Shown here piece after piece: positions 1,755 through 64,000 of a stretch of DNA of 64,000 bases. Origin of the DNA: Tetradesmus obliquus (lineage: Eukaryota > Chlorophyta > Chlorophyceae > Sphaeropleales > Scenedesmaceae); assembly GCA_030272155.1 (NCBI GenBank), contig CP126191.1, forward strand, positions 766,501 to 830,500, given 5' to 3'. A model generated the notes under the pieces. The model did no database searches and was not told the origin of the DNA. It saw only the letters and a program-made list of their open reading frames with translations. Each line of letters starts with the position of its first letter. Positions within the stretch are counted from its first letter, which is position 1. The position numbers were made by a program, and so were the translations under genes.

Positions 1755-3960
1755 TCACTGCTCCGCTGCTCTGCCTAGCGCTCGTGCTGCAGCTGTGCCT
1801 TGCCTGCCCTGCAGCGCTGCTATGAGCTGCAGCACCTGCTGCTCTGTCTCCTGCATGCTGCAGCCTGTGTCCAGCACAAAGTCTGCCAGCCGGCGCTTCT
1901 CTGCATCAGGTACCTGCAGCAGCAGCAGCAGCAGCAGTAGCAGCAGCAGCAGGTGTCAAGCCCCTTTTCAGCAGGTGTCGTCCTGCAAGCCACCAGCTTT
2001 TCTGTGCTGCACCGCCAGCTGCACTGCAACGCCATCATCAGCACACTGCCAGCTCAACGCATCTCCAGCGCATCACCCCAAATGCCAGCGCATACAGGTC
2101 ATAACAAAGTGCTGGCCCAGTGTTTTTGTGACAGCGACAGAGAATGAGCCCTGCTTGTCGGGCTCATGATCTGAAACGCTCCACTTCAAAACTCGAAATT
2201 TAAACAAAAAGCCGCACCTGCCGGGCGAGAATGGCCTCCAGCTTGTCCGCTGTCATGCCGGGCCGTGCCATCACCCGCTGCCGCTGCTGCTCAGCAGGCG
2301 CGCTGACCACCGCCACTGCATCCAGGCCTTGCTGCGCTTGTGTTTCGAACAGCAGCGGGATGTCAAACAGCAGCAGCGGGCTGCCGGCGGCCGCATGCTG
2401 CAGCATATGAAGCGCCAGCCGCGGCAGCAGGTCGGTGATCACAGGATGGCGTGCGTTAGGTTAGCGGGCAAGCACTCAGCACAGGCTGCAGGCCGTTGGT
2501 TGCCTGAACTATGTTGATGCTTATTCTGATGAACCGCAACAGAGCACCTCGGGGCAAAGGGCAGCTACATGTTGACAGCATTGCCACTCCACAACAGAGC
2601 ATGCCATTGTTACCCGTTGTACCACAGCCCCTCATCTGGCCATGGTCTACCCACTGCAAGAAGCCGCTCATCATCACACTCAACAGTGCTTGCAGGGGAG
2701 CAGGTTGCAAGCTTGCACTGTAGACTGCAGCTGTCCTAAACTCCACACATGCCAGCTGCACAGATGCGGCAAAGCACATGCTGCACACTGCAAGCTGCAG
2801 CAACAGATGAGCTGCTGGACAACATCTGGACTTAGCAACCAAATGCCGATGCACTACGCACAAGTCAGACTGCTGCAGTGCACCTTCACTGCCACGCGTT
2901 CGCTGAACGATCTCGGCATTTTCATGTCTCACCAGCTGTTGTGCAGCGCACAATCACTCACCTCCTGAATGAAATGCTTGCGCTCCTGCTCCACCAGGGG
3001 ATGCACAATGCCTTCCAGCTGCTTCATGGCAGCCTCATCCCCCACCACACACTGTTCCCTCAATGCAGACAGAACAGCGTACAGCCATATGCTCAGGAAC
3101 CACACTTTGGCAACAGCTGCTGCAGCACACTATCACGCACCTCCTGACTGAACTTGGCACGCCCTGCTCTGCTGCACAACCTCAGTGTTAGAGCTGAGAA
3201 GTCCCGCCCACCTCTGCAATAAACTGCTTGCGCTCCTGCTCCACCAATGGGTGCACAATGCCTTCCAGCTGCTTCATCGCAGCCTCATTTCCCACCACAC
3301 ACTTGCTGAGTGCTGCTCTATCAATGGCTCCATCCACCACTGCAGATGGGAAGGCAGCACCCACGGGTGCCACTGCTGCGCCGCCTGCCGAGTACAGCTT
3401 GTGCACCACTTCATCTGCACATAACACTGGCACGCCCTGCAAGCACACAGCAGCGGCAGTTGACAGGTTGAGGTTATGTGTGAGGCCAGTGGCTGGAGTG
3501 GCAACAGGGATGTGTGCACTTTCTCATCTGCATACAGCACAAGCACGCCTTGCATTCGCACACATAGCAGCAGTTGACAGGTTGAGGCAGTATGTGAGGC
3601 CAGCAACTGCAGTGGCGGCAGTGGGCAGCCTGGCACCGTGCAACAGCGCAAGCATGTTGCTGTCTGTGACATGACATGCATGACTACCAGCTCTGTGCTG
3701 CAGCTGCTGGCTGCTATGAACTGTTGCTGCATCACACCCATACTCTCTTGTGGATGCAGCAACCTCTGACATATGCGCTGCAACCGTGCGACATTGAGTG
3801 CTGCACTGCACTTTGTGAATGCAAGCAGCAAGAACAGTTGCCCACACACCTGCTGCTTAAAGAAGGCAGACACCGTACTCTTGCCCATTCCTATCGATCC
3901 AGTAAGGCCACATAGGAATGGAAGCTGCTTGATGCTGCTGCTACTGGTGCTGCTTTCCAT
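1755..3960 (-). CDS. Dephospho-CoA kinase (CoaE family), split by introns
   Basis: Catalyses the last step of coenzyme A synthesis, ATP-dependent phosphorylation of the 3'-hydroxyl of dephospho-CoA. Exon 1 (3960-3850) starts at an ATG and carries the P-loop [12 protein letters not shown]. Exon 2 (3436-3212) has the family stretch [12 protein letters not shown] and ends in [14 protein letters not shown]. Exon 3 (about 2442-2218) has [14 protein letters not shown] and the lid-like region ending EAILARQ. Exon 4 (1913-1755) has [15 protein letters not shown] and the stop. Joins 1-2 and 3-4 are in phase. The 5' side of exon 3 is not: no AG acceptor lies between an in-frame TAA just upstream and position 2442, so that join is unresolved. 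Length, about 240 residues, suits a single-domain enzyme. Partial exon 2 copies flank it in both introns. No transit peptide was placed. Confidence 0.85.
2965..3060 (-). repeat. Downstream partial copy of CoaE exon 2 with donor site
   Basis: In the intron after exon 2 there is a second copy of the exon's last part, reading [19 protein letters not shown] on the minus strand and ending in GAG followed by GTGAGT. The true exon end at 3212 is followed by GTGGGC, so the copy has the closer match to the donor consensus. Use of this donor would extend or alter the mRNA. Confidence 0.8.
3505..3565 (-). repeat. Upstream partial copy of CoaE exon 2 with acceptor-side sequence
   Basis: On the minus strand this stretch reads [12 protein letters not shown], a diverged copy of the start of exon 2 ([12 protein letters not shown]), preceded by intron-like sequence resembling that before exon 2. 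It lies upstream of the real exon, as expected for a junction-spanning tandem duplication. Confidence 0.7.
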
Positions 3961-4565
3961 GCCTGCTGGTGCTGCTGATGCGCGCTGCAGTGAATGCGCC
4001 TGCTGTTGCTGCCTCTGCTGCCGCTGCTGAAGTGCTGCTGAGATGTTGTGCAACTGAAGCTGAAGCTTAGTGTTGTAAGAAAGGCGACAGGTGGGGATGC
4101 AATTGTGGGGAGTGTGGGTGGCGTGTGCGCGTGAGCAGGGCTGGGTGGCAGTTGGCAGGGCCAGCATTACATACAATGCCAAAGCAGCAAGTTCCTCTTG
4201 GGGTCAGTTCAGAACGGATTGTTGCTGTGAAGAGCTCATGACAAAGGGTCTTCAAATGCTGGCTGAGCTGAAGGCTGTGCTGTTGTGAGCATCACTAGAT
4301 GTGTCAGCAGTGAACCGCGCCATGACGCCCCCCTGTCATGTGATGTGTATGTTCAGGCCTGCAGTGCTGAAGGAGGCCCTGGAGGGCTTGGCTACGCACC
4401 AGCCAGCGTAAATGTGTGTTTTGGGTAGATTTACGTGCTTCACATCTTGCAGGACAACATAATGAAACAACCCTTGATTTTGGTTCTGCCTTGGCTCGCT
4501 GCACCGTATGGCACGTAGACAGTAGTCCTCAACACTGTCTCGAAACTGCGTCAGACATTGCTACG

Positions 4566-6883
4566 ATGTCTTTCACGCTGTCCAGCCCCTTCGCTTCGAT
4601 AAGCGGAGAGGCCCTTGAGGAGGTTGAGAACGCAAATCCCGATGTTTTGGGTCAAGAAGAGGAGATCATATTAGATGATTATGCTGGAGCAGACGACAGC
4701 GCATTCGAGGTGCGCTGTGCCTGCTTCACCGGACCTGCAAGCGGTGTTCCGTTTTGCCACGGTAGCTATGGGTCCGCAGTACTCAGACAATGCATGTTCG
4801 CCAGATGTTATACGGATTTATATGTAAGACGCAGCTGTCGCTGTGCACCTCGCACGTGTCAGTTTCAGTTGCCTGGCCTTCACACCAGCAGCAGCAGCAG
4901 CAGCAGTGCAACAGCAGCAGTACTGATTCCAGGCACAGTGCTTGCTGGATTGTTTCAGCAACAGCAGTGGATGAGTCAAAGTCTGGCATCCTAAGCTTGC
5001 TCTTATGTCTGCGCTTTCATGCTGCTGTTCAGCCACGTTTGACATACCGGTGCTGCTGCTATGTTTTTCTGCTGCTCATGGTGACAATCCCGTCTCGCCC
5101 TGCCCACTGAACTCATTTTGAATTCATGTAACAACAAATGTAACAGGTGGAGGACCTGGACCCACTGTCAGCCCTGGAGAAGTACTGCCGCAGCGACTTG
5201 CCAGCTCAGCGGCTGACGTATGCAGCAGTAAGTGCAGCAAACAATCCACCAGCTCAGGCTCAAAAGCAGCACTTGATATCATGCAACATGTCAGCACAGC
5301 AGCTAGCAGCAAGCAGGTGACTTCCAGCAACCAGCTGGCCCTCTACACATCTGCAACTGTGTGCCAACGGCGTACGCTTGCACTCGGCAGCTGCTGCTAT
5401 CCTGAAACAGCACATTGCTGCCTAATGTGTCTGTTGACGCTTATGACACCAGTGCTGCTCCTGCTGCTGCTGCTGCTGCTGCTGCAGGGCATCGGTGCTG
5501 CTGTGGTTGAGCTGGAGTCATCAGCAGTGTCAGGCAGCCTGGTGTGCCTGCTGCGGGAGCTGCTGGGTGATGTGTACGCAGACGTGCGCCTCACCGCACT
5601 GCAGCAGGTGCTGGCAGTAGGTGAGCGTGTTGAATGTCCATACATGGAAAACATTGGGAACGCATGCACTTTGCAGCTGCTGAGCGGCCTCCAGCGTGCT
5701 ATGGCTTATCACAAAGCGCGCTTCAAGCGGCAAGTTGCGCCATGCAGATGCCGACTCACCACCAGACTGATTCGCTGTCGAAGTTGCAATGCAAACTCCT
5801 GCAATACCTGAGCAATATCTGAGTTGACACAGTAGCACCTGCTGAGGATGTGTCCTTCCTCTCTGTTTTTTGCCGTGCAGCACGGCGGCTGCGTGCCCCT
5901 GGCATGACGTTTCAAGGCGACCTGGAGTCACTGTGGGACATGGTGCAGCCGCTGCTGCTTGACGCTGACGTGGAGGTGAGCCGGTGGCAGCAGCAGCAGC
6001 GGCGGCGTCGGCCGCAACAACAGCAGCAGTGGTGGCGGCGGCGGCGGCAGATTTTGCGGCTGCAGCAGCAGCAGCAGCAGTCTGGACACTGGCTGAAGCT
6101 GTTGCCAATTGTTTTTATAACACTGTTTGCAGCAGCAACGCCAACAACAGCAGTAGCAGCAGCAGCAGCAGCAGACCGTTGTTGGAGCACTGTCAACCTA
6201 AAGCTGTCAAGTTGCTTCTTGACGTGTCATGTGTTGCCGCCTGTGCAGAACCAGGAGGCAGCTGCATCCGTGCTTGCTGAGCTCACTCACCTGGTGGCGT
6301 GGGGCAATGCAGTGGCAGCCAGCCAGAAGCTGGTGTGGGCAGTACAGCGCCTGGCGAGGCTGCCTCAAGAATTGGCAACTGAGGGAGCTCTGGCAGCACT
6401 GCGGCTCATCACAGAGGTGTGTTCAGTATCTGATTGATAAGGCTGTAATGCGGCTGTGTCACAGTCTGAGTGTGCAGCAAGTGCAGCAAGCGCAGCGGCT
6501 GCCTTAGGATATGACTGCTGCATTTGCAGTGGCATTGCGTAAGGGGCCTGATGTTGGGTTTGGGGGTGTTTGCTGCATGGGCTGTGGCAGCCAGCCAGAA
6601 GCTGGTGTGGGCAGTACAGCGGCTGGCGAGGCTGCCGCAGGAGCTAGCAACTGAGGGAGCACTGGCAGCACTGCGGCTCATTACAGAAGTGCGTGCTGCA
6701 GCTTCGCATGTGTGTCGACTTGTCGCAAAGCAGCAGGTTGCGGTATCTGCAGCGGCAGTGCGTGTGCGGACGACTGCTGCATGAGCTGCCCACTCAGGGG
6801 GCGCTGGCAGCAGCACACAGGTGCACAGGTGCATGCGCGCCTGTGCCTCACTGTAATGCTGCTGCTGCTGCTGCTCCTGCTGC

Positions 6884-6925
<42 letters not shown>

Positions 6926-9900
6926 AATGTCAGGTGGTGGTGCCGCGGCCGGGCTCCCCGCTGTGCTTTGCTGCCATTGAGCACTTTGCAGTGGCGACGT
7001 TCAAGGACATGGCGGCCTACGAGCGCAGCGCTGACGTGCGGCAGGTGAGGCAGCTGCTTTGCCTGCTGCTGCACTGTTTTGGCAGATAGCAGCAAGATAA
7101 AATTTGCTGTGGTACCTATAAAATCAGGAGCTGCATGCGACTCATGACAAGCTGGTGGCCCTGTGTGATGTGCTGCTGCTGCTGCTGCTGCTGCCTCTTT
7201 GCAGGCTGTTGCGCTGCTGCTGCCGCGCTTTGTGCGCCACATGCCGCCATCAGTGCGAGCCATGGTGCTGCCAGGTGCGTGTGGCATGTCTTCTGCCTTT
7301 CAGGTCCTCCTTTGCGACTTGGATCTCAAAAGATGCCATGTCGTTCAGCCGTGACAGTTTGCACCTTCACTCTTCAGTTGCCTGCTTGCTGGTTTTCGGC
7401 AGAATTTCTGCGCCTCCTACAGAGCACTTGGCGATTTTAGCAGGAGCGCTTTAAAATCGTGAGAGTGTTTTCATACGATGTAGCACCTCACATCTCGCAT
7501 CCCCCACGCTCAAAATGGGTGCAAAACTTTTCTCCCTATTGGCTGCTGGTCTGCAGTTCGCTGCATCTCACCAGCGCACCGCACTGCATATCACCTTACT
7601 GCTGCTCACCCATTGCTGTCGATCCATCAACCCCTTCAATCCCGCAGGTCTGCTCAAAACCCTGGCCTCAGACACGCACTGGAACGTGCGCGCTGAAGTA
7701 CCCGACATGCTGATCAACCTGCTGGCGGTGACTCAGCACAACCAGCAGTCAAACCTCCACAACTCGGTCAACCCTCAAGGCCAGGGTCAAAGTAATGGTC
7801 AAAGTAACAACCCTGGGCAGTTCGGCACAGGGCTTAGCGGGTCGTTTGACCCTTTCAGTGAGACGCCGCAGCAGCAGCCGGGTGAGACCAGCCATACTGC
7901 TGCAGCAGTGGGTGAGGCTGCTGCTGCCGCTGCTGGTGCTGCTGTTGGCGGGTTCACTCTGGAGGAGCGCAAGGCAATCTGGTGAGAGGCACGAAAGACT
8001 GGCAGGGCATGCAGACGAATTATTCAAGTTGCTAGCTGCTTTGGTGATTGTTGAGGTCGGGCTGGGCCATGTTGATGAAGATGATGTGCCAAACGCCAAC
8101 AGATAACCGACATCTGCAATGCATCTGCATGCTGTCGCCAGATTTGCGGCAACCACCACACGTGGCGCTAGCAGCCATCGCCATTTTGATTTTTTCAAAC
8201 ATTACTTCTGATGCACTGCTTCGATGCCTGCAGTGAGGCGGCCGACAAGCTGTGCAAGGACCCCAGCCACTTAGTCAAGGTGCCCGCACTGACTTACAGC
8301 AGCATATACTGCACTGCTCTCTGATGCACCGCTCTCATTTGTACTGCTCTCTATTGTACCGCCTGCAGCGAGGCGGCTGATAAGTTGTGCAGGGACGCCT
8401 TTGTCTCATGTACTGCTCTGTTGTACTGCTCTGTTGTACTGCTCTGTTGTACTGCTCTGTTGTACTGCTCTGTTGTACTGCTTGCGTGCCTGCTGTTTGC
8501 AGCGAGGCGGCGGACAAGCTGTGCAGGGACGCCTCTCACTTAGTCAAGGTGCCTGCGCTGGCCTCACTGGGCCAGCTGCTGCCGCTGCTGCCGGCAGCAG
8601 ACGCAGCAGCAGCCAAGCCGCCGCTACTGGCGCTGCTGGCCAGTACGGCCAAGCCGCCGGCCACCATTGCAGGTGTGAGGGCATGTGATTTTTGTGCACA
8701 GCCTGCCTGCATGCGTTGCTGTGTGGTGAATGTTTGCGTGCATGAAAATAACATGGTTGTGTGTATGCGCATGCGTTGCAACCTATGTTGTGCTTCGCTC
8801 TATTTCATGTGTTTGTATGTCATGGATCATCGAATGTGACTGATCGAACATTGCGGATACATGTAACATCCCAGCCGCCGCTGCTGGCGCTGCTGGCAAG
8901 CACGGCCAAGCCGCCGGTTGTCATTGCAGGTGCGAGATGCTTCATGGCTTGCTTGCCTGCGGCGTCTGCTGTATGGTGCATAGGTTGTGTGTGTACTCAT
9001 GGGTTGTAGCCTGTTGTCACGCAGTGACAGTGAAATGCCCACAAGATGGTGCAGTGAATGCACATGCAGTTCCACCTTCCGCTGTATATGTGACACTGCA
9101 CTTGATGCAAAGGAGTTAGTGCATTTACCCATCGTTGCACACTCGTGTACGCCTGCACTTCTTGCAGGTGTGCGCGTGCCTCCTCAGCTCTGTGCGCCAA
9201 GGCTGTCTGGTAGAGCAGCACCGCCAAGGCAGCGGCGGCAGCAGCAGCGGCGGCCAGGCAGGGCCCGGCAGCAGCAGCAGCGCAAGCAGCAGCAGGAAGA
9301 GCAGCCGCATGATCAGCAGCAGCAGCAGCAGCAGCAAGATGGCGCTTTGAACCATGTACTGGAACAGAGTGAAGGTCTTGCAGAACAGCCAAGCAGCAGC
9401 AGCAGCGCTACGGAAGCTGCAACGCAATCACAAGCAGTAGATGTTGCAGAAGCCGAGGCGTCTGCTGCTACACTTTACAGCAGCCCTGCTGAGGACAGCA
9501 CGGCTGCAGCAGCTGAGCCATCCACCACCAGCAGCAGCAGCAGCAGCAGTGATGTCAGAGGTGCCGCAGACATTGTTACTTCTGTGGAGGCTGCTGAGGC
9601 ACCCAGCGGCAGCAGCAGCAGCAGCAGCATGGCAGACGAATCTGCAACCACAGAGCCTGCAGCGGAAGCAGCAACCACAGCAGAAGAGTCTAGGCCTGCT
9701 GTGTTGACAACAGACGCACCATCAGCAGATGCAGCAGCTGCTGCTGTTGATGATGCGGCTCAGAATTCAGCACAGCAGGTTGAAGCTCCTGTTGACAGGT
9801 TGCAGCAGCAGCAGCAAACTGCAGCGCAGCAGCCGCCTCAGCAGCAAGAGCTGCAGCAGCAGCAAGAGCTGCAGCAGCAGCACTCGCAGCAGCAGCAGCA

Positions 9901-11362
9901 GCAGCAGCGTGCTGTGCATGTTGCGCCACGGGGCACTGCTGCTGCTGAGCTGCCGCTGGCGTGTGCATTCCACCTGGGCAAGGTAAGGCCTTGCTGTGAT
10001 CGAGCAACAGCACAGCAGCAACAGCAAAACACGTGTTGTATGCATTCTGATGAGTGCCTACGCCCTTGTTGACCAGAACCTCTGCTCTGCCAGGCTTGTC
10101 GCATAAACATGTTGAAAACCTCCCATGCGACAAACCGCACTGACATGTACTGCGCAGTGCAGCTGTGTATTACCCGCCAATGATAAGCAAGCAAACACAT
10201 CCACAGAACCCATCTGTTACCGTTTACATTTTCATGCACCTGGATGCTAAAGCCTGTGTTTCAACCCTGCAGGTGGCAAGGCACGTGGGCGGCAGCCACT
10301 GGCCAGTGCTGCAGCATACACAACACTCTGCTAGTGGAAACCTGTCCATCCAGCTGTATGCCACCAACACTTGCATGTCAATAACACCTGCATGTTGCAC
10401 TTCTGCAGGTGGCAAGGCACGTGGGCGGCAGCCACTGGCCAGTGCTGCAGCCCGCCTACATCTCCCTGGCAGCAGCAGCAGTAGCAGGGGACGCTGATGT
10501 GGCCGCTGCGCTGCTGCTGGGCTTCCCTGACCTGGCAGCAGCACTGGGGCCGGGGCCCACGCGTGCTGTGCTGGTGCCTGTGATGCTGGAGCTGCTGCAC
10601 GGGCAGCTGGTAAGTGGTTTGTTACGGCTGATGTTACTTTGAGTTGCATGTCCTGTAACAGAGCATGCAAGTCTGTTGGTGCCGGTGATGCTGGAGCTGC
10701 TGCACCGCCAGCTGGCGAGTCGCATGTTGTGGCCTTTGGATTGTTGACTAAGCAGGAGGTGCAAGTTTGCCGGTGCGCTGCTGCTGGGCTTCCCTGACCT
10801 GGCAGCAGCACTGGGGCCGGGGCCCACGCGTGCTGTGCTGGTGCTGGTCATGCTGGAGCTGCTGCACGGACAGCTGGTGAGTTTCTGTGTAACGTCATTT
10901 GTGTGTTAGAACACAGTGGGTATTTTGGCAGGTGCTGGTGCCAGTGTTGCTGGAGCTGCTGCACGGACAGCTGGTGAGTTGGGTGTCATGTCATTTGTGT
11001 GTTATTACGCACGTTGGTCTATGTGGTGTGTTGGAGGTATTGGAGGCAGCGTCAGCTGCAGTGCCACCAGTCAGCTGGAGTGATATCAATATGACAGCAT
11101 GCTGGTGCTGTAATTTTTCCTGACTTAACAAGTACCGCTGCTGCTACCGCTGCTGCTGCTGCTGCTGTTTTTACCTTTGTAGGAGCTGCTGGTCCCTGTG
11201 CTGCCAATGATGCTGTACGACGTGCCTCTGCTGTGCTTTGGTGACTGAAAGAGTGCTGCTGCTGCTGCTGCTGCTGCTGTATCTACCTGGTCAGGAGCTG
11301 CTGTCCCCTGTTCTGTCAGTGATGCTGTACGACATGCCGCTGCTGTGCTCTGCTGACTGAAA

Positions 11363-11401
<39 letters not shown>

Positions 11402-13501
11402 TTTGCTTGTCAGGAGCTGCTGGCCCCTGTGCTGTCAGTGATGCTGTACGACATCACAGCAGCGCTGCCGGGTGACCTGCGCATCTGCCTGCTGCAGCTG
11501 CTGCCCAGCCTCGCCATTCAGCCAGGTGCGGCATAGCTTGATGATGCTATTATCATATGCATATTACGCAATCGTTGCAAGACCTTCATGGGGCATCAGC
11601 AACTGCAGTTGAGATGGCTGCCCAGCCTCGCCATACAACCAGGTGCGGCAAAGTTTACTGACGACTGCAAGAGATCTGAAATTGCTGTAGTTGTGACTGA
11701 GTGTGCATGAGGTGGCGGCGGTGGCAGCAATTGCGAGAGCTATACGATATTGCAGAGTGTGTGTTGCTGATTTAAGCTGAAAGTGGATTCCTGGTGTGGT
11801 GTGGATCACAAAGTGCGCCATCGTGCATCGCGTTATACACACGTACTTTAATCTGGTTTCCATGCAATTGCTTTACTCAATTTGGTTGAATGGCTGTTTG
11901 CTGCAGACCGGGAAGTGGCTGGGGACTGGCGGGCGCGCATGGCAGTAGCGCAGCACCTACCAGCAGTAGCACGCGTGCTGACGCCACCCCAAGTGGCCTA
12001 CTGCGTCTGGCCGCTGCTGCTGACGCTCGCCAAGGACCCTGTGGCAGCAGTGCGTGCTGCAGCAGCGGCACAAGTGGGGCCGCTGCTGCTGCAGCTGCCC
12101 GACACAGACACGCCTGCAGAGGAGTGTGCTGCGGCGGCAGCGGCTGCTGCTGCTGCCGCAGATGCGGCTAGCACAAGCAGCGCGGAAGATAATGCAGCAG
12201 CTGTAGCAGCTTCCAGGGGCAGTGCTGACTGTCCCACCAGTACAGCAGCAGCAGCAGCAGCAGGAGTGGCTCCTGCTGGCGAAACAGCAGCAGCTGCAGT
12301 TGGCAGCTCAACACAGGCTGGCAACCATCTGCAGCAGCCTGAGAATGAGCAGCAGCAGCAGCAGCAGCAGCAGGCAGCTCCAGGGCTTGGGGCTGAATTG
12401 TATCCCCATTACCTGCAGCAGCAGCAGCAGCCTGACCCAAGCAGCAGCACAGCTGCAGCAGACACTGCTGCAGCAGCGTTCAACAGCTCACCACCCCTGG
12501 ACACGCACCAGCAGGAGCTCGACTTGCAGGAGGAGCAGCAGCAGCAGCAAGAGCAGCAGCAGGGTCTGCCGCCTCAGTCAAAACCAGCGAAGCAGCCGCA
12601 GCGTCAGCGCAGGGGCAGGCTGGCAAAGATGAAGAAGGGGCTGCTGAGTGGGCTGCAGAGCCTGCAGCAGCACTTGCAGGACGGCCTGCAGCAAGGGGTG
12701 AGTTTGACCAGCTTTGACCAATGTTTGACCAAGTTTCAAGAATAATCAGGTAGCACATTATGGGTACTATTCACAGGTGACATGAATGCTTGCAGGCGGC
12801 TGTGGCTTGATACTGGTATGTCAATACAGCATGTTTGAGCAGCGACAGTCTCCAGGCGCATAGGCGGCTTGACATGACCTTGCCGTGACATGTGCTGACA
12901 TGCCAACCTGCTGCATGACCAGTGAACCTTGTTATTACATGTTATTTTGTCACTGTTTTTTGACCGCAGGTCGACATGGTCAAGGAGTCAGGCGGCCTGC
13001 AGCGTCAACCTACTGCATGTCCATTTGGCTGTGTCATAACATGTTATTTTGTCACTGTTGTTGACCGCAGGTTGACATGGTCAAAGAGTCAGGCGGCCTG
13101 CAGCGGGCACTGAGTGAAGTGGACAGCCAGCTGCAGTGGCTGCAGCAGCAGCCCACTGGCACCATGCTGCGAAACATCGGGCAGAAAATATCTTCTGCAG
13201 CAGCCGGCAGCAGCAATGCAGCAGCATCGGGCATGTCCGCTGCAGCTGGGACTGGCGCGAGCAGCGCTGCTGCTGTGTGCCCGAATGCGTACTACTCGCT
13301 CGGGCAGTTGGAGGGGCAGCTAGGGTCGTTAAATGCTATGGAGGCGATTGTAGATCCCTGCAAGTATCTGCCGACTCCCTCGTGGCCTGCGCTAGCAGTT
13401 GACTTGGCAGCGCTTGCTAAAGGCAGCAGCAGCACGGAGCGCCAGGCGTTTGTGGCAGCAGCGGGCAGCATCCTAGCAGCACACAAGCAGCGCACAGCGG
13501 C

Positions 13502-18821: not shown

Positions 18822-21196
18822 ATGGACAAATGTAGTCTGTTTATGACGATTCTTGTGCTTCTGGGTAGTCGGAACGCCTGCTGCGTAACAGCCACGGTCA
18901 TTCTAATCAAGGCAAGTGCACGTTTGGTGTCTATCGCTGTGCCGCGAACAACAGTTTCTGATGCTGTTTGGTTTGGTCAACCAATGTTGTTTGTCGGTTT
19001 TCCACGATTGCAAGCCTGTAAGCTGCGGGTTTTCGGAGGTCTCACTTGACAAACCCCAGTTCAGTCTGATGCACGTGGATCAATCGTCGTCACCATTGTC
19101 TGCTCGGTTAGCTGTTTTAGCCTCTAAGCAACTGAGAAAGGGACATGCAGTCACGTGAGCTGCTGCAGCAACGTGGTGCACCTTTGCTGCTGCTGCTGCT
19201 GCTGCTGCTGCTCTGCAGGGCGGAGAGGTGGTGAATCATGACTTGCAAATGAAAGCTGATGTGCTCATCAAGGATGGTCTAACAGCAGAAGTTGCACCAA
19301 ACATCAAGGTGACTCAGCAGCAGCACCGTATCGTCGCGTTGCAGAGCACAGTGTGTTGCTATCACAGTTGTGCTTGCAACATCCGCACATGAACACACTA
19401 AGGTGACTACGAGCAGCGCTGGTGGCAAGCCATTTCGAGGCTAGGGACCAAAAGAGAGAGCTATGCAACTGGGTTACTCAGGTCTTGAGCAAACAGCAGC
19501 TGGCGCATTGTAGCTGCATGAAGTTTCTCGCCTGCGGTTGCTGCAGCGCAAGGAGTGACATTGTTACAGCATGCTTGCACCCGCAGCAAGGTACAGAAGT
19601 AAGACGCAGTAAGCATAGGTAAAATAGCCTAATGCTTGCTTGCTTTTCACAAGCCGGGTGTATGCTTGCCCCACTGCAGGCGCCAGCAGGTGCCAAGTTG
19701 GTTGATGATTTGCCCTAACCATTTCTGCCCTCTGACCAGCCGGGGGTCTGTGTGCTACACTGCAGGCGCCAGCAGGTGCCAAGGTGATTGATGCATCTGG
19801 CAGCTACGTCATGCCTGGGGGCATCGACCCGCACACACACCTGGCCATGCCATTCATGGGCCAGGTGGCATGCGACGACTTCTACAGGTGAGAGCGCAAC
19901 TCAAACAGCATTCATAAGTTGTAATCTACACTCCAGCAAAATGACTGATTTGTGTGCGCTGCCACAGTGCTGGGAATCCACTGACTGATGGTTGCTACTG
20001 CATCCTCCGGCGCATAACGCAGCAGCAATGTGCACCCCAGAAAACACCTTGTCACTGCCGCACAGTGCCATATGTACGTCTGAAGGCTTGCATTTCAATC
20101 AACTGGATACAGTCATGGCTTTCCATCCTATTTCCTCACCTGTTGCAGCGGCCAGGCGGCGACACTGGCAGGCGGCACCACCATGCATTCTCACTGCTAT
20201 GCAGCCCTTGTAGACACTCGCTTTATGTCAGCCTTGTTTCATTTGAACCTAACAGATCCTATTTCCTCACCTGTTGCAGCGGTCAGGCGGCGGCACTGGC
20301 AGGCGGCACCACCATGCGCTTACATTGCTATGCAGCCCTTGTATCACGTTGGGCTTTCATGATTCTTATCAATAATCAATCTGCATCCTTTCTTGATGCA
20401 GCGGCCAGGCAGCGGCACTGGCAGGCGGCACCACCATGCACATCGACTTTGCGCTGCCGGTAAACCACAACCTGCTGGCAGGGTTCAAGGAGTGGCAGGC
20501 TAAAGCGCAGCTAGCATGTGCTGATTTTGGCTTTCACATGGCAGTCACAAAGTGGAATTCTCAAGTAGCTGAAGACATGGGCAAGTTGGTGCAGCAGGGC
20601 ATCAACTCCTTCAAGTTCTTCATGGCGTACAAGGTGAGGGCTGTTTTGCTACCCCTAGGGTTTTGCTCGCCCTGCGGTGGCAGATTTGGGCGGACTTGAG
20701 CAGGTAAGTGTGTAGGGGATGGGCGCGTTAACAGCTGTGTGTGCAGCAAGCTTACAGAACTGCAAGCTCAGGCCAGCAGACAGAGTTTGTGAACTAGCCA
20801 GCACTTTGTGCACGAAAAGGGATGGCCAGGTTGCTGAGGACATGGGCAAGTTGGTGCAGCAGGGCATCAACTCCTTCAAGTTCTTCATGGCGTACAAGGT
20901 GGGGGCTGTTTTGCTAGGGTTTGCTTGTCCTGCGGCGGCAGGTTTTGGCGGATGTGAGCAGCTAAGGGTTGTCGTGCTGGACAGGGTGACCAGCTGTGTT
21001 TTCATCAGGCTCACACAGCTGTGAGATCAGCAAAGCAGTCAGAGTTGTCGAGTGACCAGACATTCCGCGCATGCAAGGTTGGCACACAGGCTGTGGCTAA
21101 GTTGTCTGTGACGATCACTTCTACTGGACATTTGGCGAGCTCTGCAGCAGCTTAGAACCCTGGCTCAGCACAGCAAGTGTGACTGAGGATTTGCCA

Positions 21197-21388: not shown

Positions 21389-23519
21389 ATGACAGCAGCA
21401 GTGGCTGCAGTGCGTTGTCATTGCATATACCAGCCGTTGCTGGCTGAACACCGCAAGTGCTGGGCCTGTCTGTTCAACTTCTGTTCAACGTGAGGTCATA
21501 CTTCCTGCACTCGCCAGCATATCCTTTCATTGCGCTTGCAATTGCTGCAGGTGCATGCAGAGAACGGTGAGGCAGTTGCGCTGGGGCAGCAGCTGGTCTT
21601 TGAGGCAGGCATCACAGGCCCTGAGGGCCACGCCTTGTCACGGCCAGCTGTGCTGGAGGGAGAGGCCACTGGGCGGGCCATTCGGCTGGCAAGCTTTGTG
21701 GGGGTGCCATTGTATGTGGTTCATGTGATGAGCATCGATGCGATGGAGGAGGTGGGTGGGGCTGGGGTGGTGGGCTGGCTGCAGCGATTGTGTAAGGTTG
21801 TAGTTGGAAATGGAGCCAGGGTAAGGGACCTAGGAAGTGGCCGTTGCAGTTGAGAGCCTGTGCAGGTCTATCAGCGCTACAGCTGAGTTGCATGGCAGTT
21901 GATCGGCGGCCGAACATCACACATATGCTGTCCGACAGCGGACAGCGCCGAGGTAGTGAATTGTGCTTCAACACCCTCTGCATCCACCGCACAAAACAAA
22001 TCAATTTACCCCATTACTGCCGCAGGTTGCGCGCGCCCGCAAAGCAGGCCTGCCCATTATCGGCAAGCCTGTGGCTTCGGGCCTCGCCTTGGACGAGTCT
22101 GCCATGTGGGACGCAAACTGTGTGATCAGCAGCCTTGCCCATGCTGCAACAACCTGCGCTGAGGCAGTGCGGCTGCGCTGCAACAACCTGCCTGCGGCCT
22201 CAGGCTTTCAACAACCTGCTGCCCCCCCACTGCACAGTCAACAATCACAACTCCCTGTTCCCTGACTCACGAATCCTGCAGGTTGCGCGGGCCCGCAAAG
22301 CAGGCCTGCCCATTGTCGGCGAGCCTGTGGCTTCAGGCCTCGCCCTAGACGAGTCTGCCATGTGGGACGCAAACTTTACAAAAGCAGCGGCAGCAGTCAT
22401 GAGCCCGCCCATCCGCAGCAAGCAGCATGGTGTTGCGCTCAAGAAGGCGCTTGCAGGAGGCCTGCTACAGCTTGTGGCGACAGACCATGCGGTGTTCAAC
22501 AGCAGCCAGAAGGCTGTGGGGCGGGGAGATTTCAGGGTGATACCGAATGGGGTGAATGGCCTTGAGGAGCGCATGCACGTGGTGTGGCAAGAGATGGTCG
22601 TGTCAGGTGAGGAAAAGGAACATTTGCAGGATGTTAGCAGGATGCTGTTTGCAACTTTGTACTGCGTGTTTGCCGTGGAGGAGCGCATGCACGTGGTGTG
22701 GCAGCAGATGGTGGTGTCAGGTGAGGGCGGCAGCTTGCAGGATGTCAGCAGGGATCATGTGTGCAACCATCGACTGTGTGCTCTTGAGCTTTGCATGCAA
22801 GCGGTGTATCACAAAGTGACCGCTGCATGCCTGCGATGTGGTAGGACGTGTGGCCAGGTGACGATGCCGCTGCTGCCCATGCTGCTGCTGCAGGCCTCAT
22901 AACGCCCCGCGACTTCGTGCGCATCACCAGCACAGCAGCAGCGCAGATCTTCAATGTATACCCCCGCAAGGGCCGCATTGCGCCTGGCTCTGATGCTGAC
23001 GTCATCGTGCTGGATCCAAGAGTGAAGCACACCATCAGCGCGGCAACACACCATTCACGCATTGACACAAATGTATATGAAGGTACGAGGCGTGCAGCTG
23101 CTGGGATAGTGTAGCTGCTGGGGTAGTGTACTGGGATAGCCTGCTGCAGTGCATGCTTGGTGATGCCACAGCACCTCGCACATGTTCATCCTCGCAAGGG
23201 CCGCATGGCTCCTGGCTTTGATGCTTACGCCACTGTTGCTGCTGCTGCTGCTGTTGCAGGCAAGCAGATCCAAGGCAAAGTGACAGTCACCATCAGCAGG
23301 GGCAGGCTGGTGTGGTTTGATAGCAAGCTGAATGTAGAGCCTGGCAGTGGCCGCTTCATCCCGCTGCCAACACACGGACCTTTGTTTGATGGCATAGACA
23401 AGGCCGGCGCAGATACTGCTGCTCGGCTGGTGAAGGCGTTTGCAGCAGAGAATGGGGCCACGCCAGTTGTGCGGGAGGATGCTGGGGGCAGTGGCAAGGC
23501 AAGCAAAGATGAGTTGTGA
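18822..23519 (+). CDS. PYD2: Dihydropyrimidinase with C-terminal KDEL, 9 exons
   Basis: Opens the ring of dihydrouracil and dihydrothymine in reductive pyrimidine breakdown. Exons: 18822-18911, 19219-19308, 19766-19887, 20402-20633, 21252-21326, 21551-21751, 22282-22606, 22894-23082, 23260-23519; all in phase, about 527 residues. Zinc-site residues of the family are present: PHTH, the lysine of NSFKFFMAYK that is carbamylated, His in QVHAEN, His in VHVMS and Asp in TDHAVF. GITGPEGH and YPRKGRIAPGSDAD are typical. Intron 1 appears to be GC-AG (AAG|GCAAGT). The protein ends SKDEL, an ER-retrieval signal, and the N-terminal 30 residues contain a hydrophobic run (MTILVLL), though no convincing signal peptide is proven. 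Arabidopsis PYD2 is reported in the secretory system, which fits. Exons 3, 4, 7 and probably 8 have flanking partial copies. Confidence 0.93.
19672..19705 (+). repeat. Upstream partial copy of dihydropyrimidinase exon 3 with acceptor
   Basis: CACTGCAG and the first ~22 bases of exon 3 (APAGAK) occur about 90 bp before the true acceptor at 19765. Confidence 0.8.
20140..20330 (+). repeat. Two upstream partial copies of dihydropyrimidinase exon 4
   Basis: At about 20150 and 20281, intron end plus exon start (GQAAALAGGTTM) are repeated with flanking sequence, spaced about 130 and 120 bp, before the real exon at 20402. Intron sequence TTTCCTCACCTGTTGCAG is shared by the two copies. Confidence 0.9.
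20815..20960 (+). repeat. Downstream partial copy of dihydropyrimidinase exon 4 with donor
   Basis: Repeats the exon end (VAEDMGKLVQQGINSFKFFM) followed by AAG|GTGGGG, and shares the next ~50 intron bases with the true junction at 20633, so the copied unit clearly spans the exon-intron border. It includes the catalytic lysine codon. Confidence 0.92.
22027..22120 (+). repeat. Upstream partial copy of dihydropyrimidinase exon 7 with acceptor
   Basis: Ninety-odd bases after CGCAG encode ARARKAGLPIIGKPVASG, matching the real exon starting at 22282 with a few substitutions. The copy then diverges. Confidence 0.92.
22674..22725 (+). repeat. Downstream partial copy of dihydropyrimidinase exon 7 with donor
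   Basis: Repeats EERMHVVWQxMVVSG with the donor GTGAGG. A weaker, diverged copy of part of exon 8 (PRKGRMAPGFDA) lies at about 23190-23230. Confidence 0.88.
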
Positions 23520-35101: not shown

Positions 35102-35199
35102 GGATGTTGCACTAGCCATGTGGTGTACGAGCTGTAGCATGTTCTGTGACATGAATCCAGCTGCATGTCTGGTGTGACAGCTGCGTATGTTTTGAGTAT

Positions 35200-35625
35200 G
35201 CGGCGTGCGGCGCCCCCATCAACACCTGCCACAAGACCGGCTGTGCGGCGGCTGCGGCGGCTGCGTATGACTAGCTGTGTTGCACTAGCCATGTGGTGTG
35301 CGAGCTGTAGCATATTGTGTAACATGAATTCAGCTGCATGACTGGTGTGGCATTTGCATATGTTTGACTATGTATGCGACGTGCAACGCCGGCATCAGCG
35401 CCTGCCACAGCTCTGGCTGCGCAGCGGCGGCAGCGGCTGTTTACGCATAGGTGCTGCACTAGCGATGCCGTGTGTGAGCCTTATCATATCCTGTGACATG
35501 AATCCAGCTGCATGACTGGTGTGGCAGCTGCGTATATGTGGGTATGCGGCGTTGCAGCATCGGCATCGACGCCTGCTACAGATCCGGCTGCCCGGTGGCT
35601 GCAGCAGCTGTGTACAAGTGGCTTG
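35200..35625 (+). repeat. Three extra copies of the RBR C-terminal coding end and 3' flank
   Basis: After the stop at 35101, segments at about 35203-35273, 35388-35448 and 35556-35620 repeat the tail of the last exon (CGAPINTC... ending Ala-rich then YD or YA), the first two with their own stop. Between them the 3' flank, including a CTAGCCATGTGGTG-like stretch and ATGAATCCAGCTGCATG, is repeated with a period of roughly 170-185 bp. Divergence increases with distance from the gene. Confidence 0.9.
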
Positions 35626-40500: not shown

Positions 40501-43500
40501 CAGCGTGCATCTGCAACTCCACATGGCTGGGAGTGCATAGTTCTGCACAAGCCTCCGCCATGTTCGTGACTGTGCAGCTGCATTGTAGGCTGACTCAGCG
40601 CACACCTTGGAAAGCAGCTACCACTCAGTAGTGCATAGCCTGCAAGTCTAGGCTAATGTATCGAACAACAGCAATGGCAACACCAGAGCAGGGCACACAT
40701 GCGTTCCTAAAGCACAATATACCTACAAGAGCCACAGTGCCGCCGTCTCCCATGGTTGGTGACGGTGCTTGATGATGAGTTGCAACATAAGTCAGGGTTT
40801 GCGATACAGTCAGTAGTGACCACTACATTGCGGTGGCTACAATTTTGTTGTCAATGACATTTCCGACGCCACAACATGTAGCAGCGCTGACCACAAACTT
40901 GCATGATACAGTAACCCCACACATGTGTCGATTTGGTTTGAACAACAACAGTCACCTTCCGTTGGATCGGGCGTGAAGTCGCTTGGGTCCTCCTGCCAGC
41001 TTTGTAGCGCAGTGCCCTCCCTGTCGATCACCCCTTTCAGTGCCTTCAGAGCTAGCAACTCTGTGTTGTTTCTGGAGCACCGGGCAAACCGCAGCGGCCG
41101 CACCGTGTTTACCAACTGGTCTGGCACACACCCGGTGACGTTTGTGCCATCCAAGTTGATCTCTTTCGCGGCCAGTGTGGACCACGCGCCTGGTATGGTG
41201 CCTGACAGCCCCCTATTATCCTGTAAACGGAGGTATCGCAGGGACTTGGACCAAGTGGCTGAGCCGTAGCTTGCAGGAAGCGTGCCGGTAATGCCGTTCC
41301 ACTGCAAGTCCAGAAACTTGAGCGACTTCATCCCCACCCAGTTTGGCAGGGGACCATTGACTCCCGCGTTAAATCTGATAGCCAGCTCCTCAATCGTATC
41401 CCAAGAGCTCCACTCTTCTGGCAGTCGGCAGCATAAGTTCATCCCTGTCAGGCTGAAGATCTTCAAAGAGGATGGTGCAACTGCAGCTAACTCAGTAGGG
41501 AAGGGCTGCTGCGGGCCTTCATCTCCACCCGCCATAAATGACCGTAAGTAAGGCGTTTGTGGTAGCAACTTAATGAGTTCTGGGGTAGCGACGTTCAAGG
41601 TGACGGTGAAAATCTCTGTGATGTAGAACGCGCCATTGATGGACTCAAACTTCACAGTGAACTGCAGGTCCCCGCCTGAGCCTTGGTACGGGTCTGTGAA
41701 GGCGAACGTTGGTGTTTCCTCGAGCTTGCCCTCGCCATAGAAGCCTGACAGAGTTGGATACATCTCCAGAGTCTGGTTGATGTACAACTGCCATAACGAA
41801 CCGTTCCAAGAAGGACCCGGGTAAAACATAGTTGACAACAGGTCCATCGCCTTCCGCTGCTGCGCCTCGATTTCAAGCCGTTGGGTGGGGCAGAAGCCAG
41901 TGATCTGTGTGCCGGATATAATGGTCCAGGAATCAAGGGCATCTCTCTTCTCCAGAGGAAGCGGTACGCAACCAGACAAGCTGCATGAGCAGCCAGAGAA
42001 TAAGCAAAACCTGTTGAAACCAATCCTATGTGGCGCAAGCTTCAGCTGATGGATACATGTCATTTGCAAATAATGGGCCTCGCAACGGCATGTGTCTTGC
42101 TCCACTCAACGACATATGTGGGAGCCCCATTTAGGGACCGACAAGCGGCGTGTATCCATTTACAACCTCTTGAATACCTGATCACTTGACTCACCGTCAT
42201 CTGAGATCTGAGCTGAATAGTAGGAGACGTGGAGGCGCTTGAAGTATCCTCATCGCCACACACGCCCATGTCCTTAACTTACGCGGGTGTTAAGTGTGAA
42301 CACACCAGGCATAGCTCATTTATTCGAATAAGTTCATTCATTCATACATTCTGTCATCTGAGTTGGAACCGCCATCGCTCAGAGCAGTGGAGTCCGCGGC
42401 ACAATATGTGGGCGTTCAACGCACGGTTGATAGCTCACACACAAATCTGCATCAGACTCTGTGGCGGTCTCACAATACTTGTATGCTACATTGTCATTGC
42501 ACACAAGGCTTGACAACTATGCCAAACACTGAAATGTAACCTACTTGGAATTGCCATACAGCTGCAGAAAGTTGAGCCGTTTATATTCTGACCAGGATAA
42601 TGGCACCTGCAGCAAGAGTCACCAGTGTCATATAACACGCACGTTGTGCCACATAGCGCGGTTGACTTTGCTCAAGCCACGGGACAGTGTGACCCAAAGG
42701 AAGGACAAGGAGGTGCATGCATGCCATCAATAATTGATGTTGATCATGAGCACTGTCACAAGTTGTGCAACTTGAAATGAGCCTGATACATTGTATGACT
42801 TGTCAAGTCATTAGCCATCAACGCAGCCAAGCCAACCTGCCCTTCCAGCTTGTTGTTTGATATGTCCAACTTGAGTAGCTTGGAGAACCTCGGCCAACCC
42901 AACGGCAGACTGCCTGCAAGCAACATACACATTTCGAGTTAGGGCTGATGACAACATTGCTATGGGCTCAGACTGCAACATGTTTATCCCTATTCCAGAG
43001 TAGACGGAGAGCGCAGGAGGGACAGAAGGCGTCACAGCGACAGCGACCTGGACCGCGGCCCTGCGGCGCGGCGCCCTATGCACAAGGCGCGGCGCAGCGC
43101 GGCGGCGCCATATTGCGCCGCCTGCAACTGGCGTTGTTTGGCTGAGCTGAAGCCGGTTAGGCTCTTCCTTCGTGCCGCGTGCTTGTTGTTGTATGTGGCA
43201 GGTAACTTTGGCAATGATTTGACAAATGTTCGTGTGAGCCTGACAATGTTCGTGTGAGCCTGAAACATGTGGGGATACAAATTTCAAGTTGTGACCGCGC
43301 AGTCTGCATGCAGCCTTGGCAGTCTGCTTGCCAAGCGTCCCGGCCGCCAGAGTGCGATTCTGTCAATCAACAAGTACAATGCACGATCACACCTTTTGCT
43401 ATGTATCGTGCTACAGTATGCCTTGGCAGACCGGGTGTGATTGGGTGTGGCTCGTACCGGGTGTCATCACACATGCTATGCTTTTACTATGCCTAGAATC

Positions 43501-57979: not shown

Positions 57980-58105
57980 GTTGAATTCAGGAATGAATGA
58001 ATGAATGAGCTACGCGTGGTGTGTTCACACTTAACACCCGCGTAAGTTAAGGAAGGGGACGTGTGTGGCGATGAGGATACCTCATGCGCCTCCACGCCTC
58101 CTACC
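57980..58105 (-). repeat. Dispersed repeat, copy 2
   Basis: Reverse-complement relative of 42225-42350, including the GAATGAATGAATGAATGA run at its left end. It directly adjoins the inverted pseudogene fragment of the protease exon. Confidence 0.8.
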
Positions 58106-58129
58106 ATGCCTACCGTACCCGAGGGTCCG

Positions 58130-58485: not shown

Positions 58486-58530
58486 GATCATTGCTACCGT
58501 AGCAGTGGCACTGCTACGGTAGCAATGATC
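58486..58530. repeat. Perfect 45-base palindrome
   Basis: Two 22-base arms (GATCATTGCTACCGTAGCAG plus TG) that are exact reverse complements around a single central base. It is followed at 58530-58579 by a direct duplication of CGGACTGCTGCCTCCTCACA. Confidence 0.97.
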
Positions 58531-62475: not shown

Positions 62476-62510
<35 letters not shown>

Positions 62511-62808
62511 GGCAGCGACAGCCGGCAGGTGGTGGGTTAGGTCCAGCAGTGCAGGGCTTGTGCTGTGCAGCTGGTGGCACCATCAGCCTGCTGCCTGCTG
62601 CTGCACAGACTGCCACCTGGTGGGTGCGCAGCGAGCCAGCTGCTGGGGCCCCAGCAGCAGCAGCCCCCCCTGCAGCAGCAGCAGCAGCCCCAGCAGCAGC
62701 AGCAGCTGCTGTTGCTGCTGGTGGTCCAGCAACTTCGCAAACCAGCGGCAGCAGCCACGGCCTGCAGCGGCAGCAGCAGCAGCAGCAGGACCCACTGCAA
62801 GCACAACC

Positions 62809-62843
<35 letters not shown>

Positions 62844-64000
62844 GTGGTGGTGAGGAGCGCAGTGAGACGTACCTGCACGTGGTGCCCTGCCCGCCTGATG
62901 TGCCCTCCCCTGAGCTGTTCACATGGCAGGAGGTGACACTGGCGCTGAAGCTGCAACTAGTACTGCCACGGCAGCAGCAGCAGCAGCAGGACATGCCTGT
63001 CGAAGGCGCTGGCGCTGCCGCTGCTGCTGCAGCAGCAGCAGGAGGGTCAGCAGCAGCAGCATTGGACGAGCCGTTCTCGCGCCGCTCCTTCAACATGGAT
63101 CTGTTGTATGGCCCTGGGGCCCCTGGATCATCTGCTGCTGCTGCTGCTGCGCAGCCGCAGCCTCCGCGCAGCAGGCACAGCAGCAAGAGCTCGCGCAGCC
63201 GGGCCCCACCAGCAGCAGCAGCAGCAGCAGGGGATGTGCTGAAGCTGAGCGTGCAGCTGCAGGGGCGCTGCCCGCTGTGCTGCCAGATGTTTGGCAGTGT
63301 GGCGGCGCTGGCGGCGCACATGGCCTGCAGCCATGACAAGCTGGGCTGCTGCTGCCCTGATGCTAACAGCATACAGGTGCGACACTTGGCTTCTGCGGTT
63401 GAAGTTCTGTTGCGTTAAGCTGATTATGGTTGGGTGTTTGTAGATGTGCAAGCAATGCAGGTGTTGGCAGTAGGGGACATGTCTGGTCCCGGCGCACATG
63501 GCCTGCAGCCATGATAAGCTGGGCTGCTGCTGCCCTGATGCTGGCAGCATCCAGGTGCGGCACTTCGTTTGGTTGGAGTCCTTTGGCTGTAAGGGAGAGT
63601 GGATGTGTTGTGTGACATGGTGCAGGCAGCAATCAGGTGCGGCCTGTAGCCTGTGTGATGTGACGCCACAAAAGAGACAATGTACCACATAATGGAGGTG
63701 TTTGTTGTGGTGCTGGTGGTACGTGCTGGGTTCAAGTTGTGGTTGGGTTCTTGGTGCATGTGCCGGATACGCGGGTGTTCGCAGTAGGAGACATTTGTCT
63801 TGACCTGGCCGTATGGTGCTGCAGTTAAACACATCATTGATTTGGTCATGCAGCTCTTCCCCTTAGATCCGAATGGTGAAGAGCAAGCATCATATTGTGC
63901 TGCTGCTGATGTTTGTCTGCTGCTGCTGCTGCTGCTGCTGCTGCAGGTGTGGGTGGACGGCAACGCTGAGCAGCAGCAGCAGCAGCAGCCAAACAGGCGG
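60344..64000 (+). CDS. SUZ12/EMF2-like Polycomb (PRC2) subunit, cut at both ends
   Basis: SUZ12 is the scaffold of the complex that methylates histone H3 Lys27. Exons: 60344-60492, 60581-60648, 60960-61311, 61378-61514 (weak donor), 61699-63376, 63947 to the window end; all in phase. The N-terminal exons read EDEHKFLLSF and LWLNRTHALTHRPESARARQ, matching the SUZ12 DHELFLQAF and FLxRTLxYxxxRNSR blocks. DCLWMFDL resembles the EMF2 CLWSKIPL segment. A zinc finger at about 63270-63335 has spacing C-X2-C-X12-H-X4-H, identical to SUZ12/EMF2. The large exon 61699-63376 is stuffed with Gln, Ala and Ser tracts. The diagnostic C-terminal VEFS box would lie beyond the window and the first exon is not seen, so the identity rests on the N-terminal blocks and zinc finger. 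Confidence 0.75.
63484..63556 (+). repeat. Downstream partial copy of the SUZ12-like zinc-finger exon end with donor
   Basis: Repeats AHMACSHDKLGCCCPDAGSI and CAG|GTGCGG, about 180 bp after the true exon end at 63376. It includes both zinc-binding histidine codons but not the cysteines. Confidence 0.93.

Follow-up and report, generated by a model that had tools for sequence, protein, structure and literature searches.

Partial copies of exon edges across the Tetradesmus obliquus genome and their possible origin in break repair from a diverged homologue

Introduction

A 64,000-nucleotide stretch of the genome of the green alga Tetradesmus obliquus (assembly GCA_030272155.1, contig CP126191.1, positions 766,501 to 830,500 of the forward strand, or C1:766501-830500; hereafter the window) contains genes whose exons are accompanied by partial copies of their own edges, each copy carrying part of the exon together with a splice junction. 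A first-pass annotation, made from the letters of the window alone, counted at least eighteen such exon boundaries, distributed over six genes and both strands, and read them as survivors of a high rate of tandem duplication. The locus thus raises the question of how an exon edge and its splice site come to be copied beside the gene, and whether this is a peculiarity of the window. The explanation put forward here, to which we give close to an even chance, is that the partial copies are scars of homology-directed repair of breaks, begun in an exon with a diverged homologue as template and left unfinished.

Frequency, spacing and orientation

The assembly comprises 104.66 Mb in 17 contigs, of which 314 kb were sampled: the window and 25 stretches of 10 kb, 20 of them at fixed places and 5 extra (labelled L0xx). 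Self-alignment of the window, which the first-pass annotation had proposed as a check, was run after masking of simple repeats and bore out the partial copies, with 48 local direct matches. A primary pair was defined as a local direct match not accounted for by an overlapping match of shorter period, and a large repeat in L020 (4.8 kb onward) was excluded from every pair count. The sample held 119 primary pairs, 26 in the window and 93 in the other 250 kb, and 3 of the 25 stretches were without any. The window is therefore not special, and partial exon copies are widespread in the sampled genome. The density is about one pair per 2.6 kb, which extrapolates to roughly 40,000 pairs genome-wide. 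Sampled genes are intron-rich, and one of the proteins is ferredoxin-like by reading of its translation. The repeat excluded from L020 (4889-10000) consists of near-identical repeats of up to 1.4 kb (100%) inside an open reading frame (ORF) that reads like a retroelement.

Within 1.5 kb, 283 local matches were direct and 9 inverted, and genome-wide searches with two fragment-bearing queries returned matches to their own locus only. Spacing was 93-155 bp in 76 of the 119 primary pairs (mode 105-135) and 225-275 bp in 14, and the longest primary spacing was 443 bp in a search that reached 1.5 kb. When tandem duplications diverged by 14% were planted, those of 80-400 bp were recovered in 187 of 197 cases, those of 60 bp in 15 of 25 and those of 40 bp in 0 of 18. 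Since detection is even across 80-400 bp, the peak at 93-155 bp is no detection effect above about 80 bp.

Placement relative to splice junctions

Self-alignment together with reading of the sequence gave about 21 affected boundaries in the window, more than the eighteen of the earlier count: two in a CoaE-type gene (minus strand), eight in a gene at 4.5-15 kb, five in a gene at 19-23.5 kb, four in an RBR-type gene at 30.8-35.6 kb, one in an LRR-like gene (minus strand) and one at 60-64 kb. Exon calls in the sample came from our own gene finder, which was trained on long ORFs only and run strand by strand; it predicted the minus-strand LRR-like genes poorly.

Pairs in which similarity covers no more than 85% of the unit are termed isolated (65 of the 119 primary pairs) and the remaining 54 full-unit pairs; the 93-155 bp class holds 37 of the former and 39 of the latter. 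The isolated pairs of the whole sample provide 33 boundary instances, in which acceptor-bearing fragments lie upstream of the exon in 15 of 16 cases and donor-bearing fragments downstream in 17 of 17. The lone acceptor exception is an apparent whole-exon copy (L025 8889/9151), which is also one of the 17 donor instances. The first-pass annotation had stated this arrangement for all fragments; it stands as a rule but not without exception, as the acceptor fragment at 3549 in the CoaE gene reads AA and the fragment at 23182-23232 matches an exon interior, without a junction. Reverse placement was found in 9 of 43 readable instances of full-unit pairs, by our count; all lie inside multi-copy arrays, in which it is uncertain which copy is functional and the gene finder treated an array member as the exon. 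An in-frame duplication of 150 bases within one called exon (L023:2653-2940), an exon-internal survivor, was also seen; its seven differences are all at third positions.

Tandem duplication with one breakpoint in the exon and one in the intron, as the first-pass annotation described, is the right geometry for these fragments. Copies scattered at random relative to the junctions, which it had named as contrary evidence, are not what three hand-modelled genes show. Of their 18 primary pairs, 15 had a junction in the exon copy; two pairs were fragment against fragment, one was exon-internal and none was intron-born. Random placement in the same three genes would give one junction in 0.30, 0.45 and 0.22 of cases and purely intronic pairs in 0.33, 0.39 and 0.67. 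Copies that lie wholly within introns diverge at about twice the rate, and some deficit of intronic pairs is therefore expected, but hardly their complete absence, which counts against random placement followed by neutral survival alone.

Exon and intron divergence in isolated pairs

The simplest reading of this geometry is a high rate of plain tandem duplication in one lineage, in which units of 100-270 bp arise at random, those that disrupt exons are purged and the fragments are neutral from birth. Direct orientation and geometry fit this reading, as do full-unit arrays with homologous introns (e.g. 31507-32272), fragment-private changes that are neutral, and intron similarity that exceeds chance even in isolated pairs. 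The absence of intron-born pairs in the three modelled genes speaks against it, and so does the contrast between exon and intron in the isolated pairs.

In 29 isolated pairs the exon parts are at least about 90% identical; likeness was detectable over the remainder of the unit in 4 of these 29, all four CAG/CTG-rich by eye, and in 14 of the 65 isolated pairs overall. In a neutral simulation, by comparison, introns at 15-25% divergence were recognised in 80-94% of cases (91% at 20% and 80% at 25%), so that plain duplication leaves unexplained the 25 of 29 pairs in which the rest of the unit is undetectable. Around the junction of isolated pairs, identity was 0.81-0.96 in the exon, 0.97-1.00 at the splice dinucleotide, 0.55-0.61 at intron bases 6-10 and 0.36-0.51 beyond, while unrelated splice sites of the same genome gave 0.26-0.32 at those intron positions. 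The introns are therefore homologous in at least part of the pairs, and far more diverged than the exons; that the intron flanks are unrelated was considered and rejected, as the residual similarity exceeds this null. A functional splice dinucleotide was kept in all 33 isolated-pair fragments (16 AG, 15 GT and 2 GC), although two of the 33 boundary calls (19776 and L026 8451) are probably misplaced inside the exon. One of the two GC donors faces GC in the exon copy, and the GC donor reported in the first-pass annotation is present in the fragment at 10714.

The exon differences are biased in the same pairs. Over all isolated pairs, 171 differences were synonymous and 112 changed an amino acid, where a neutral fragment set against a constrained exon predicts 118 of 283 to be synonymous (P 2e-10); in the 31 isolated pairs whose other copy is not called exon, the counts were 117 and 88 (P 7.6e-6). 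In several pairs, intron sequence was called as exon (e.g. 31507-32157) and the codon counts are diluted as a result; the curated array test below avoids this. Across terciles of amino-acid divergence (pN 0.014, 0.052 and 0.114) in the 31 pairs, synonymous divergence (pS) was 0.234, 0.262 and 0.234. Over-dispersion was absent from the synonymous counts (chi2/df 0.67, P 0.91) but present in the amino-acid counts (1.68, P 0.011). A pS that is flat across pN suggests that a set level of synonymous difference was in place when the copies were joined, and that they then decayed for differing times. Matches needed 50 bits, so that short ones must be fairly alike; this makes pS trade against pN at the high end, but cannot yield a pS of 0.23 at a pN of 0.014. 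Isolated fragments were thus apparently not born identical to the neighbouring exon. A satellite in L026 (6.1-7.8 kb) was excluded from the tercile and spacing tests and from the comparison of intron with exon divergence; the array itself (L026:6162-7722) is satellite-like, with a 245-bp unit and 98% identity.

On plain duplication, intron and exon halves should be equally old and changes should be independent of codon position. The halves differ in the isolated pairs, while arrays and other full-unit pairs have homologous introns, and independence of codon position holds in the arrays but not in the isolated pairs. The earlier notion of survivors of a high tandem-duplication rate accordingly fits arrays that decay neutrally and fails for the 65 isolated pairs, on account of their intron halves and synonymous bias. 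As an account of the whole, we regard plain duplication as unlikely, if the best placed of the alternatives.

Arrays and the remaining alternatives

Ten arrays with 43 fragments were curated. Changes private to a fragment fell on the three codon positions in the ratio 26/20/23 (21 synonymous and 45 not), those of the functional copies in the same arrays in the ratio 2/1/6, and some fragments contain a stop or a frameshift. The codon-neutral private changes indicate that fragments evolve as non-coding DNA after birth.

The chief candidate for an artefact is an assembly that merged at least two diverged haplotypes, such that each switch between them, falling in an exon, left an unmerged overlap of about 120 bases. 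The narrow size class with its second mode near 250, the resemblance of the pairs to diverged haplotypes and the failure of three queries to find a second haplotype in the assembly are all as this would have it. Haplotype joins would not make arrays in which as many as ten copies show graded divergence, dimers, stops, frameshifts and neutral decay, however, and these arrays argue that the copying process is real; in addition, the 21 sequences checked contain zero N and the contigs measure 3-11 Mb. We hold an artefact of this kind to be improbable.

Less probable again is that the fragments are functional, as alternative exon parts or as splice-site decoys under selection. The retention of the splice dinucleotide in every isolated fragment, the lower divergence of exon parts than of adjoining intron and the synonymous bias of isolated pairs would all be in keeping with function, but the private changes in arrays are codon-neutral and include stops and frameshifts, the fragments examined have by eye no consistent second splice site, exon identity does not fall steadily away from the splice site, and no splicing route was seen that gives an intact protein from a fragment. 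In-frame read-through of fragments was rejected as well, the spacings modulo 3 being evenly spread by eye, and an inspection of a few cases by eye for splicing at AG or GT inside the copies gave no consistent motif.

Exon-limited gene conversion, by which the exon parts of old tandem copies are repeatedly overwritten by the functional exon while the introns drift, would suit the divergence in arrays of 0.106 for fragment exon parts against 0.247 and many gaps for introns, and an exon divergence that does not climb with intron divergence, but conversion from the current exon should give neutral differences and a pS that varies with pN, where synonymous-rich differences and a flat pS are observed, and we consider it very improbable.

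Some duplicates that are otherwise 95-97% identical contain exon patches with almost only synonymous differences (L024 6123/6362 and L026 529/912). In L024, a duplicate of 373 bases is 96.5% identical, yet five synonymous differences are clustered within about 25 bases of one exon. In a tRNA-synt_1 gene of L026, which we take from our own reading to be isoleucyl, one exon start has five upstream copies, preceded by several intron edges. By reading, four older copies differ from the functional exon over the shared stretch almost exclusively at third positions, with 7-8 synonymous and 0-1 amino-acid differences; in one of them the inner end has additional amino-acid changes. Two of the four resemble each other closely, and the rest are mutually about as distant as from the functional exon.

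Loci in the window

The clearest case in the window is the RBR-type ubiquitin ligase gene (plus strand; Pfam RING and IBR matches). A 115-bp tandem array (31507-32272) places six acceptor and exon-start fragments upstream of the functional exon start at 32201, and the exon end (donor after 32373) is followed by nine exon-end and donor fragments (32286-33536; units of 115-133 bp and 258-bp dimers). The last acceptor and the first donor are predicted to give the normal RBR protein: the model spliced at 32201 and 32373 matches RING and IBR, which bears out the earlier suggestion that a normal messenger RNA is still possible. The same claim is supported by a single-copy oligopeptidase B model in L013 (named from PF00326 and the names of its matches), which aligns over its full length to its best match, P0001, at 64%. 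Further on in the RBR-type gene region, an exon-start fragment lies upstream of an exon start near 34386 (34096-34471; spacing 208), an exon end with donor and its fragment are spaced by 108 (34452-34647), and the end of the last exon is repeated 3.4 times with a period of 173 (35030-35615), all on the plus strand.

In the CoaE-type gene (minus strand; CoaE PF01121), self-alignment places an exon-end, donor-bearing fragment at 2959-3053, downstream of the exon copy at 3209-3303 (2959-3303; spacing 250), and an exon-start fragment at 3513-3616, upstream of the exon copy at 3400-3502 (3400-3616); the acceptor of this fragment is AA and not AG.

The gene at 4.5-15 kb is on the plus strand. An exon end with donor at 6309-6422 is copied at 6581-6694 (6309-6694; spacing 272), with 10 synonymous and 0 amino-acid differences in the exon and intron parts without detectable likeness. 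Exon-start fragments at 8234 and 8369 precede the exon start at 8503 (8226-8560), and between the exon-start fragments lies a 13-bp minisatellite, TGTACTGCTCTGT, in 5.7 exact copies (8409-8482). An exon end with donor at 8610-8679 recurs at 8867-8936 (8610-8936; spacing 257). The exon-start fragment at 10267-10315 is identical over its 49 bases (100%) to 10403-10451 (10267-10451; spacing 136), and its intron flanks have no detectable likeness. The exon end at 10569-10623 is followed by three exon-end fragments with donors after 10714 (GC), 10876 and 10973 (10569-11004). Upstream of the exon start at 11414 there are exon-start fragments at 11183 and 11295 (11181-11454), the exon end at 11500-11539 is copied at 11617-11656 (11500-11656; spacing 117), and an exon-start fragment at 12904-13004, its intron part homologous, precedes 13006-13105 (12904-13105; spacing 102).

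Also on the plus strand, in the gene at 19-23.5 kb, an exon-start fragment lies upstream of an exon that begins near 19766-19776 (19649-19793; spacing 86), and two more, at 20149 and 20280, lie upstream of the exon start at 20402 (20125-20465). The exon end at 20562-20633 is copied with its intron into a fragment at 20827-21046 (20562-21046; spacing 265). At 22022-22119 there is an exon-start fragment that is 94% identical to 22278-22375 (22022-22375; spacing 256), with intron flanks lacking detectable likeness; an exon end with donor and its fragment are spaced by 114 (22564-22780), and the stretch copied without a junction from the exon interior into the next intron (23182-23232, within 22954-23232) is the exception to the rule noted above. 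Neither the exon at 22282-22605 nor one piece of the 4.5-15 kb gene gave a Pfam match, and both genes are left unnamed.

On the minus strand, a gene that we take to be LRR-like from reading the sequence by eye has an exon-end fragment downstream of the donor at 38210 (38045-38236; spacing 155). An exon end with donor at 63312-63419 is copied on the plus strand at 63490-63593 (63312-63593; spacing 178).

The window also holds hairpins at 44-235 (79% alike, with inner arms 71-133 and 154-216 94% complementary) and at 58486-58530 (98% alike). The short end motif of a stretch in L013 (9280-9660; motif at 9280-9321, reverse strand) recurs at dozens of sites across the genome, including 58068-58107 of the window. 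Inspection by eye shows a related sequence, inverted, some 16 kb from there in the window (42228-42300 against 58019-58107); these are perhaps the ends of a mobile element. CAG/CTG runs are very frequent across the window, in exons and introns alike, and give rise to poly-Q, poly-A and poly-S stretches.

Proposed origin

On the proposal of unfinished repair, a double-strand break in or near an exon would be followed by invasion of the homologue's exon by one end, and synthesis would run outward, crossing the splice site at the exon edge and entering the intron of the homologue, over a unit of about 120 bases. Were the extended end then joined to the other broken end rather than annealed, the exon edge and splice site would stand twice, in direct order. 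A sister or near-identical template would yield an ordinary tandem duplication with matching intron; a diverged template would yield a good match in exon and splice site and a poor one in the intron. A preference for exons would follow from their likeness, which even in diverged homologues is sufficient for invasion, while heterologous intron would hinder annealing, and an extended end that meets a poorly matching intron would be reason enough for repair to fail without any mutant. The fragments would be unused after birth and decay neutrally. To what is observed (geometry, size class, direct orientation, local restriction, a pS independent of amino-acid decay, retained splice sites, diverged introns and neutral private changes) the proposal adds the diverged homologue, the break, strand invasion and end joining, all of which we infer.

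Failed synthesis-dependent strand annealing should leave direct, local copies, as the ratio of direct to inverted matches and the two own-locus searches indicate. Two polymerase-theta-like loci were found (C4:2768702-2778993 and C9:2090769-2101913), each with HTH_61 and POLQ_helical matches no more than about 12 kb from DNA_pol_A matches of the same strand. Exon-by-exon profile searches, which can miss genes, gave no further HTH_61 or POLQ_helical locus as a candidate for HELQ. Two polymerase theta loci and no HELQ-type locus would fit such a route, although this is suggestive only.

Several points weigh against the proposal. Two queries sent after the diverged homologue in the assembly gave local matches only; a third gave five local matches, itself included, and many to an unrelated short dispersed repeat and to simple repeats. 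For alleles within a single species a pS of 0.24 is very large, and merging of haplotypes in the assembly could leave similar overlaps. In the 22 full-unit pairs that have no exon call on the other copy, pS is 0.25-0.27 whichever pN tercile is taken, and over-dispersion is mild (P 0.028); their pS too is flat, so that the isolated and full-unit classes are not cleanly separate. Some isolated pairs fit neutral decay (L025 2447, 3:8, and L024 4767, 4:9), and four full-unit fragments have lost the dinucleotide (3549, L012 5042, L013 4088 and L019 2555). The median spacings of isolated and full-unit pairs, 138 and 125.5, differ somewhat (Kolmogorov-Smirnov P 0.026), which speaks against one size class. 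The model does not require that exon parts in arrays be less diverged than introns, a difference that conversion or an older mosaic origin could explain; in the RBR array, amino-acid changes separate the functional exon from the fragments, and the roughly four versions counted in the L026 gene fit a simple two-parent hybrid poorly. The exon calls are gene-finder predictions from the DNA sequence, and the 50-bit threshold on short matches may flatten the terciles at the high end. As to polymerase theta, the POLQ_helical match on C9 is below the cut-off, the frame read on C4 holds a stop, and the absence of HELQ comes from exon-wise searches.

A wider form of the proposal, which we advance more tentatively, is that repair between deeply diverged homologues, anchored in exons, keeps adding partial exon copies that carry the other homologue's splice site and intron edge, at about one per 2.6 kb; several haplotypes, extinct or unsampled, would then be recorded in the genome as fossils, and intron heterology itself would turn normal repair into tandem duplication.

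Relation to known systems

Tandem mutually exclusive exons consist of several similar exon-like copies side by side, each complete with acceptor and donor, whereas nearly all the copies described here are partial and have one splice site; the fragments examined end inside the exon, and the L025 copy is the single whole-exon one noted. Introners are near-identical introns dispersed over many genes, while the fragments of the two queries searched match their own locus only. Gao and Lynch reportedly described internal gene duplication with intron creation, in which exons are duplicated and introns created within a gene and splice sites are involved.

Duplications of exonic sequence with intron gain are described from Drosophila (PMC2891723), and in the potato RdRp gene an intron was gained through a tandem duplication that spans an intron-exon boundary (PMC4974935). 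The potato duplication crosses the boundary as the exon-start fragments do here, but it concerns one gene and a new intron, while extrapolation gives tens of thousands of loci here, with likeness mostly limited to exon and splice site in the isolated pairs. In Caenorhabditis elegans lacking HELQ (helq-1), extended ends fail to anneal and polymerase theta joins them; the tandem duplications that result from this strand invasion, synthesis and end joining range from about 100 bp to 10 kb (PMC8654963). The copies in T. obliquus resemble these in being direct tandem copies of DNA that was copied in synthesis, with sizes from about 100 bp, although here that route is our proposal. The worm duplications, from mutants, have a median of about 1 kb and a sister template (same source); here the mode is near 120 bp, the copies are anchored at exon edges, many were apparently diverged at birth, and the genome is not that of a known mutant. 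Searches of an open literature library, which covered its listings, gave no account of copies at exon edges throughout a genome that share a 120-bp size class and were diverged at birth. Tandem duplication across an intron-exon boundary is thus already known from single genes, and its genome-wide form at exon edges appears to be new.

Significance

A genome that has a local duplication of about 120 bp in every 2.6 kb or so, mostly at exon edges, is unusual even if plain duplication is the explanation, and would mislead automatic gene annotation. If the proposed origin is true, each fragment should match the native exon and intron edge of some other haplotype, and divergence between homologues is predicted to raise the rate of such duplications. 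Short tandem duplications that arise when strand annealing fails, a class of mutation familiar from tumours and repair mutants, would then be tied to ordinary genome evolution, and the proposed origin would account for a steady supply of decoy splice sites and of raw material for new introns.

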